NCBI GenBank assembly: GCA_947456525.1
Contig: CANGRI010000002.1
Location: 1-45,479 of the forward strand
Length of the DNA: 45,479 nt
Direction of reading: 5' to 3'
Origin: Opitutia bacterium
GTDB taxonomy: Bacteria; Verrucomicrobiota; Verrucomicrobiia; Opitutales; UBA953
Within the stretch, counting starts at the first letter, position 1; each line of letters opens with the position of its first letter. This document shows positions 16,976-21,038 of this stretch, piece by piece. Both the position numbers and the translations under genes were made by a program. The notes under the pieces were generated by a model. The model saw only the letters and a list, made by a program, of their open reading frames with translations. It ran no database searches and was not told where the DNA came from.

Positions 16976-17092
16976 AGGAGGCCGGCCCCTTGCGAAAACC
17001 ACCCCCTACGGCATAACGGGGGAACGCCCTATCGCCGATTGGGAATTATTTACGTTTGCCCCGCCCCACTTGACAGACACCCCTTGACAACC

Positions 17093-18958
17093 GTGGCCCG
17101 TATTTCCCGCAGATCGATCGATGAGCTCCGCCAACGGGCAGACATCGTCGCGCTCGCCGGGGACTACACCCAGATGAAGCAGCGCGGACGCGACTGGTGG
17201 GGCCTCAGCCCCTTCAAGTCCGAGAAGAGCCCCTCCTTCAAGGTGAACCCGGAGACCGGCCTCTGGTATTGCTTCTCCACCCAGCAAGGCGGCGACGCCT
17301 TCAAACTGGTGATGAACCGCGAAGGCCTCGATTTCCCGGAGTCCGTCGAACGCGTCGCCAACCGTTTCGGCTTCAAGCTCGACTACGAGAGCGGCGGCGA
17401 CGGCAAGAACGAGAAATCCTTCCGCGGCCAGTTGCTCGAAATCCATGAGCTTGTCACCGACTACTGGCGCCGTTGCTTCCTAGAAGACCCGGTGCACGGC
17501 GAATGGATCCGCGACTACTGGACCCGCCAGCGGAAGTTCTCGCCCGAGGTCGCCGACGATTTCGGCATCGGCTTCGCGCCCGTCGACGACTCCAAGCTCA
17601 TCCCCGGCCTGCTCGCCAAGGGCTACGGCAAGGACGCCCTCGCGCAGACCGGTCTCTTCTTCGGCGTCGACCGGGTGCCGGATCCGCTCCGCTGGCGCTG
17701 CCGTTTCCGCGGCCGCCTGATCATCCCGATCCGCGACATCCAGGGACGCGTCATCGCCTTCACCGCGCGCCAGCTCGACATCACCCCGCAGGACGACCCG
17801 TCCCGCGAGGCCAAGTACGTCAACTCGCCCGAGACCGAGCTGTTCAAGAAATCCCGCACGGTCTTCAACCTCGACCGCGCCCGCATGACGCGCAAGGAGG
17901 CCGACCCGTTCGTGCTCGTCGAGGGCCAGCTCGACGCAATCCGCTGCCACTCGGCCGGCATCCCGGGCGCCATCGCCGCGCAAGGCACCGCGGTCACGGA
18001 AGAGCACATGCAGCAGCTCCGCCGCTTCACGCAGCGCCTGATCGTCTTCCTCGACTCCGACGCCGCCGGGCAGAAGGCCGCCCTACGCCTCCTGCCTATC
18101 GGACTGCGCGAAGGCCTCGACATCCGCTTCCTCTCGCTGCCTGGCGGCAAGGACCCCGATGAGTATTTTTCGACGCACGACGCCGCCGGGTGGGCGGGCC
18201 TCGTCGCCGGCGCCCGCAGCGCCATGCAGTTCTGCGTCCAGTCGCTCGTCCCGGAAGGCTCCGTCAACCTGCCCCTCACCAGCCGCCTGAGCCTGCTGGA
18301 AGCCATCTTCCCCATCGTCGAGCAGGCCGGCGCCGAGGAGATCGTCCGCGAAGCCCTGAACGAGGCTGCCCGCCATGCCGGCATCGGTATCCGCGAGATG
18401 CACATGGCCTACGAACGCCACCGGGCCCAATCGCAGGCCCAACGACCCGCCGCCCAGCTCGGCGGCCCCGTCGACCCGACCCCGACCCCGGTTGTCAAGG
18501 GGGGGGGCTTGACAACGCTGGAGGAGGATTTGATACTGTTCCTCCTGCGGCATGATTCCTACTTCGTCCCCATCGCCCAGTCGCTGCCGCTCGAGTGGAT
18601 CGACCAGTCCGGCCGGGGCGGCCAACTCCTGATGGCCCTGCTCAACGAAGCCGCGCACGGCCATTTCGCCGGGCTCCGCGAAGCCATCAGCGCCCTGGAC
18701 GACGAGATGCGCACCGAAGCCGCCCGCCTCTCGGCCGAAAGCTACGCCGGCCGCGACGACGAGAAGGACATCCTGCCCCGCGCCAACACCATCCTGAAGT
18801 CCTTCCACGGCCGCCACGTCCAAGCCCTCATGCGCAGCCTCGACGCGCGCATCGCCGCCACTCCCCGCGACGACGTCGCCGCGCTCAACCGCCTCCAGTC
18901 GGAAAAGATCGCCCTGCGCAAGTCGCACGCGACGCCACCGACCCTCACCGACGCCTGA
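17093..18958 (+). CDS. dnaG: DNA primase DnaG with degenerate zinc finger
   Basis: 621 residues from the GTG at 17093 ([19 protein letters not shown]); this fits the family start better than the upstream TTG. DnaG makes RNA primers for replication. The zinc-ribbon position reads [12 protein letters not shown]...[11 protein letters not shown]: against the usual C-x2-H...C-x2-C only C60 is kept, and the others are S39, K42 and T63. The TOPRIM centre is intact ([12 protein letters not shown] near 275 and [11 protein letters not shown] near 320). Residues 465-621 form the helicase-binding part, after a Pro-rich linker coded by a run of eight G flanked by inverted repeats. rpoD follows 10 bases later. 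Confidence 0.93.
18491..18516. repeat. 9-bp perfect inverted repeat around eight G inside dnaG
   Basis: gttgtcaag (18491-18499) and cttgacaac (18508-18516) are exact reverse complements separated only by eight G. The stretch uses GTT, GGG, TTG and ACA, which are rare in this C-ending-codon gene. Losing one G would create TGA within a few codons; gaining one would end translation about 15 codons later. The right arm holds TTGACA, and the core cttgacaac also occurs at 17083-17091 just before the dnaG start. Confidence 0.7.
18509..18537 (+). promoter_or_regulatory. candidate internal promoter for rpoD within dnaG
   Basis: TTGACA (18509-18514), a 17-base spacer and GATACT (18532-18537) match the sigma70 pattern: full -35 and 4/6 for the -10. 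The -35 lies in the arm of the 9-bp inverted repeat. The -10 lies in the loop of a second dyad (aggagg 18522-18527, cctcct 18541-18546). It would start transcripts about 420 bases before rpoD. Promoters for rpoD inside dnaG are known in E. coli; here it is inferred from sequence only. Confidence 0.5.
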
Positions 18959-18968
18959 TTTTCCCAAG

Positions 18969-21034
<2,066 letters not shown>

Positions 21035-21038
<4 letters not shown>

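Follow-up and report, generated by a model that had tools for sequence, protein, structure and literature searches.

An inverted repeat with a G-rich centre lies within the coding sequence of the DNA primase gene dnaG in an uncultured freshwater Opitutae bacterium, and its right arm coincides with the -35 box of a predicted promoter facing rpoD, the gene of the primary sigma factor. We consider it probable, judging from the comparison of sequences, that this part of dnaG is a cis-regulatory site controlling rpoD transcription, comprised of a promoter and a predicted operator, and that dnaG and rpoD are controlled together. The window, that is, the whole stretch of DNA analysed, spans 45,479 nt (GCA_947456525.1, contig CANGRI010000002.1, positions 1 to 45,479, forward strand) of a draft genome of 1.8 Mb. 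In this window rpoD/sigA starts 10 bp downstream of dnaG, and the repeat occupies dnaG codons 468-474, between the Toprim region and the C-terminal domain, where it encodes the residues V-K-G-G-G-L-T outside the Pfam catalytic domains. The features are collected in Table 1.

Table 1. Coordinates of the dnaG-rpoD features in the window
Feature	Position	Strand	Remarks
Direct repeat CTTGACA-N7-CTTGACA	17069..17089	+	Directly before the dnaG start codon; second copy within CACCCCTTGACA
dnaG (DNA primase)	17093..18958	+	GTG start; assigned from ORF and relatives; Pfam Zn_ribbon_DnaG, DNAG_N, Toprim_2
Left arm GTTGTCAAG	18491..18499	+	Constrained core TGTCAAG, 18493-18499
Invariant 24-nt element TGTCAAGGGGGGGGGCTTGACAAC	18493..18516	.	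TGTCAAG-GGGGGGGG-CTTGACA-AC; in 45 distinct same-genus dnaG
Nine-G homopolymer	18499..18507	+	10 G in genomes G004 and G002
Right arm CTTGACAAC	18508..18516	+	Constrained core CTTGACA
-35 box TTGACA of intragenic rpoD promoter (predicted)	18509..18514	+	10/12 match; conserved across the order
Second dyad	18522..18546	.	AGGAGGA 18522-18528 / TCCTCCT 18540-18546; imperfect in relatives
-10 box GATACT (predicted)	18532..18537	+	17-bp spacer; ATA bias at codon 481
Codon 487 CAT (His487)	18551..18553	+	Invariant 45/45; -1 frame TGA 18553-18555; ATG 18552-18554
rpoD/sigA (primary sigma factor)	18969..21038	+	Pfam Sigma70 regions 1.1, 1.2, 2, 3, 4

An invariant inverted repeat within dnaG

The first-pass annotation had described a perfect 9-bp inverted repeat around eight G, and both arms are present as described, the full palindrome (18491-18516) reading GTTGTCAAG-GGGGGGGG-CTTGACAAC. 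The G homopolymer itself, however, counts nine bases rather than eight, because the last base of the left arm is also a G. This tract is the only homopolymer of at least 7 of any base in the 45-kb window, and the palindrome is single-copy in its own 1.8-Mb draft genome. Constraint is limited to the inner 7 bp of each arm (TGTCAAG/CTTGACA); the two outer bases of the left arm vary across the genus alignment, which contains GTT, CCT, GAT, CTT, TTT, GCT, ACT and ATT. Its single copy, its G tract as the sole homopolymer of this length and its invariance in the genus put the inverted repeat far beyond chance. The further dyad that had been pointed out after the palindrome does exist in the window, but it is not conserved in relatives; we set it aside as a functional part and regard it as probably incidental.

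A pattern search for TGTCAAG-N-CTTGACA over 55 same-genus genomes recovered the element in 48, among them every one of the 22 genomes with a completeness of 90% or more. Each of the 48 has a single copy, always in dnaG, except for draft genome G046, in which two copies lie on two contigs, both with dnaG. The genomes lacking the element look incomplete at this place, since most of them gave no dnaG match.

The codon alignment of 45 distinct dnaG sequences from the genus shows how narrowly the constraint is confined. The 24 nt of the element form an unbroken invariant run, while the next longest invariant run in dnaG measures 5 nt, and the element is letter-for-letter the same in 45/45 sequences, even though amino-acid identity in the domain around it drops to about 50%. 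Synonymous change over codons 467-474 amounts to 0.0 of expectation, compared with a gene mean of 0.84 and a minimum of 0.60 among the 8-codon windows not overlapping the element. Immediately outside this stretch the values are normal again, with codon 481 (0.30) and codon 487 (0.0) as exceptions. Apart from Trp and Met codons, no more than ten codons have an unvarying third base: codons 467-474, an Ala codon (GCC) and His487 (CAT). Specifically, codon 467 encodes Val, Pro, Asp, Thr, Ile, Leu, Phe or Ala, and its wobble T is kept under these eight different codons; a codon that changes its amino acid yet always ends in T points to selection on the nucleic acid and not on the protein. The symmetric arms are conserved at the level of bases, independently of amino acids, as looked for in an operator.

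These data bear directly on the earlier proposal that rare codons in the element reflect selection on DNA or RNA. The codons are rare indeed, with genus-wide dnaG usage of 9% for GTT, 16% for GGG, 8% for TTG and 7% for ACA, and the retention of the element in every distinct sequence strongly supports the proposal. Relatives that encode the same residues by ordinary codons and lack the repeat are absent among the 45 distinct sequences of the genus.

A predicted rpoD promoter and a leader copy of the motif

The first pass had missed both the recurrence of the motif before dnaG and the identity of the right arm as -35 box of a predicted rpoD promoter shared across the order. TTGACA together with GATACT is the only sigma70-like site in 2.3 kb; the predicted promoter lies inside dnaG, co-directional with and upstream of the adjacent rpoD. 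To place this site in a wider frame, we compared the dnaG genes of 67 further order members, all from other genera. An in-frame TTGACA followed 16-17 bp on by a TAnnnT -10 box is present at the homologous dnaG position in about 17 families of the order. At this site Leu-Thr is written TTG-ACA in 41/45 cases, against 2/136 for Leu-Thr pairs at other places in these genes (Fisher p about 1e-33), and TAnnnT or TTTAAT stands at 16-17 bp in 36 of the 41, against 5.6 +/- 2.1 expected from synonymous shuffles. Downstream of most boxes rpoD was detected, and short flanks limit the remainder. At two loci (L082 and L091) rpoD was not found downstream and the box is also absent; families f14, f74, f75 and f76 keep rpoD and have no TTGACA box at this site.

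Within the genus, the two hexamers are likewise conserved at sigma70 spacing beyond coding need. Ile481, which falls in the -10 box, is encoded by ATA in 33 of 35 Ile cases, while ATA makes up 4% of the Ile codons in the gene. The -10 box is weaker in some clades, where it has degenerated to AGTCCT, AGCCCT or AATTAG, and the palindrome is perfect there; this promoter alone therefore does not account for its conservation. TTGACA with its -10 box bears the signature of an order-wide intragenic sigma70 promoter facing rpoD, and this signature suggests that Leu-Thr is written TTG-ACA here for promoter reasons. We infer that this promoter fires.

The other arm leads to the dnaG leader. On the minus strand the left arm together with the G tract gives CCCCCCCCCTTGACA, the same 10-mer that recurs as CCCCTTGACA just before the dnaG start codon. 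This 10-mer is nearly confined to the dnaG locus, and its two matches in the own genome both lie there; TTGACA occurs 5 times in the 45-kb window, 4 of which belong to dnaG. The direct repeat of the leader reads CTTGACA-NNCACCC-CTTGACA in the window, and the pattern CTTGACA-N7-CTTGACA is found in 43/55 genus genomes, once per genome and at dnaG only. We inspected the leader copies of TTGACA as candidate dnaG promoters. They are not simply promoters, because no -10 box lies at 16-18 bp, and transcription from them would start inside the gene.

A search for the motif at other promoters found it again before dnaG and revealed no consistent target elsewhere in the genomes. The copies of CCCCTTGACA outside the locus have no shared context; one of them lies in sequence reading like a dnaB helicase motif, PLDMVVIDYIQL. 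A dispersed repeat or a regulon was rejected, given that the own genome holds no second copy of the palindrome.

Regulatory site, slippage and other readings

In this genus the predicted -35 box has become one arm of an unchanging palindrome centred on G9. We propose that CTTGACA with the flanking C/G tract is recognised by a protein, probably a dimer. Bound over the -35 box, this protein would block or modulate transcription of rpoD by RNA polymerase; bound to the leader copies, it would adjust dnaG. Were both sites bound, primase and the main sigma factor would be set together. The V-K-G-G-G-L-T residues, outside the catalytic domains, may tolerate such a demand of the DNA. The palindrome and CCCCTTGACA would then be a putative operator of dnaG-rpoD, served by a dedicated regulator. 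The search for further targets in the genomes came back empty, which leaves no regulon from which this regulator might be named. The length of the G tract also speaks against an operator, as binding by a dimer would not plainly call for all nine G.

The G tract has properties of its own. Two of 50 tract copies have 10 G, those of draft genomes G002 and G004, and all other copies listed have 9 G. The two 10-G copies lie on contigs CAIWNE010000060.1 and CAIKRN010000259.1. A tenth G shifts the frame, and in both genomes the C-terminal frame is still open over 149-150 codons, which fits slippage, a polymorphism (recent change) or an assembly error. The frame claims made for the window hold: one G fewer leads to KGGA-stop, and one more to 19 residues followed by a stop. 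Across the genus the other frames stop early in 45/45 sequences, either as KGGA-stop or after 8-19 residues. Thus a conserved homopolymer of at least nine bases is combined with early stops in the other frames, as in dnaX-type slippage. Codon 487, the source of the -1 frame TGA in the window, is always CAT although CAC is preferred. As a pure -1 frame stop, this codon is a weakened candidate: CAT is kept in 9 sequences with an earlier -1 frame stop, and may therefore serve something else. Additionally, in the stretch CATGA (18551-18555), the ATG opens a +1 frame ORF of 26 aa in 34/45 sequences, and its position is just past the point where rpoD transcription is predicted to begin.

Programmed slippage would account for these observations by letting RNA polymerase or the ribosome slip on the nine-G run, so that a fraction of the primase made would end just past the tract and lack the C-terminal domain, which is presumed to bind the helicase. 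Thermus thermophilus dnaX, which slips on nine A near its 3' end, offers a precedent (PMC1088944). The invariance of G9 where GGG is not the preferred Gly codon, the immediate or early stops of both wrong frames, the fixed CAT487 and the two 10-G genomes with their intact C-terminal frame all speak for slippage; yet it leaves the frozen arms and the leader copies unexplained, TTGACA is kept order-wide without any G run, CAT487 persists where an earlier stop makes it redundant for this purpose, and the 10-G cases could be assembly errors. We regard slippage as the chief function of the element as unlikely. That a single 24-bp site does two jobs, as a regulated rpoD promoter and operator and as a nine-G slippage switch for a second, helicase-uncoupled primase, we hold to be improbable; if it were true, primase form and sigma supply would be set at one frozen, genus-wide site. 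Control at the level of RNA is distinctly unlikely in our view. Here the leader of the dnaG mRNA, CCCCUUGACA, would pair with the internal UGUCAAGGGG, or the internal hairpin would signal pausing, processing or translation control. About 10 nt of complementarity between the leader and the left arm with its G tract persist across most of the genus, each of the two parts is all but limited to the dnaG locus, and the computed duplex in the window species reaches -32.5 kcal/mol, compared with -11.6 for the hairpin alone. The two sites are, however, 1.4 kb apart in a translated mRNA, the internal site of sister genus g15 has the opposite sense (CCCCCTTGACA) with no leader partner seen, and no Rfam family matches at E up to 1. 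Both RNA partners are invariant and so present no covariation to test, which also counts against pairing.

The remaining readings have far less in their favour. Phase variation, raised in the first pass, would have replication slippage in G9 switch full-length DnaG off reversibly. The two 10-G genomes could be read this way, but dnaG is expected to be essential, nearly all tract copies of the genus have exactly 9 G rather than varying in length frequently, the downstream frame is intact even with 10 G, and arms and leader motif go unexplained; we consider phase variation highly improbable. A site-specific recombination or attachment site is barely conceivable. It has in its favour only the geometry of inverted arms around an 8-bp core and the single copy per genome, and against it stand the order-wide promoter box in one arm, the return of the motif as direct repeats in the dnaG leader, and the absence of the exact element from viral contigs; a loose pattern gave many unrelated matches when a phage link was sought, and the exact element gave none in viral contigs. 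Chance or codon bias with shared ancestry could appeal to the small size of the element and to nothing else, and it carries virtually no weight: it is already refuted by the invariant run and by 8 adjacent codons without a synonymous change in 45 sequences. We accordingly retain regulation of dnaG and rpoD through a promoter and putative operator as the preferred reading.

Related genomes and known systems

Neither the left arm with its G tract nor the leader arrangement was found outside the genus in searches of the class and of other order members, and a search for the palindrome with up to 3 mismatches elsewhere in the class returned nothing except two chance-like matches. On the sequences compared, the left arm and G tract were gained at the level of the genus, and the right-arm promoter box is older. 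Sister genus g15 carries CCCCCTTGACA at the -35 site, and CCCCTTGACA occurs once in each of three g15 genomes tested, again at the -35 site. Genus g149, the closest other genus, is without leader motif, internal promoter box and palindrome.

A regulated primase-sigma locus of this kind has partial counterparts. In size and layout the element, with arms of 7-9 bp inverted about an 8-bp centre and a predicted promoter next to it, resembles the CIRCE operators of HrcA, which have a 9-bp inverted repeat and a 9-bp spacer; it differs in arm sequence, in its invariant spacer and in having one target locus only. An rpoD promoter inside dnaG is itself a known arrangement, as E. coli and B. subtilis have one: in the macromolecular synthesis operon the gene order is the same, and the rpoD/sigA promoter (a heat-shock promoter in E. 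coli) lies inside the upstream dnaG (PMC2824700). In contrast to these cases, TTGACA-16/17-TAnnnT occupies one homologous codon pair across the order, and in the genus the predicted promoter is joined to an unchanging palindrome with G9 at its centre. The dnaX A9 tract of T. thermophilus likewise runs to nine identical bases towards the end of a replication gene, and the two alternative frames soon reach a stop (PMC1088944), whereas here the tract is G9, the inverted arms are frozen and overlap a promoter, and slippage is only a candidate.

Our literature search found no paper combining sigA, dnaG, promoter and Verrucomicrobia. Promoters of rpoD inside dnaG were described decades ago in model bacteria. 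Here a promoter signature fixed at one codon pair in about 17 families emerges from comparative data alone, and one genus adds a site of 24 bp in which no change is tolerated, a constraint tighter than anywhere else in dnaG. The site offers a handle on the balance between replication (primase) and transcription capacity (sigma), and on why a nine-G run persists in a presumably indispensable gene.

Several relatives show further variants of the locus. At the internal dnaG site of two g15 loci (L144 and L145), GGGGAACTCCCCC/GCGGGAACTCCCCC lies directly upstream of the -35 box and forms a different small dyad. At locus L271 of genus g149 (genome G398), rpoD still follows dnaG. A deep clade (L022, L025 and L063) has no direct repeat, and an inverted pair, TGTCAAGGG(G)...CCCCTTGAC, stands about 130 nt upstream of dnaG. 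Additionally, two database entries hold a dnaG of this Opitutae genus under titles that look wrong: CALPIW020000025.1 (L035; 96% identity) is titled Polynucleobacter meluiroseus, and CALQLO010000001.1 (L047; 88% identity) is titled Akkermansia muciniphila.
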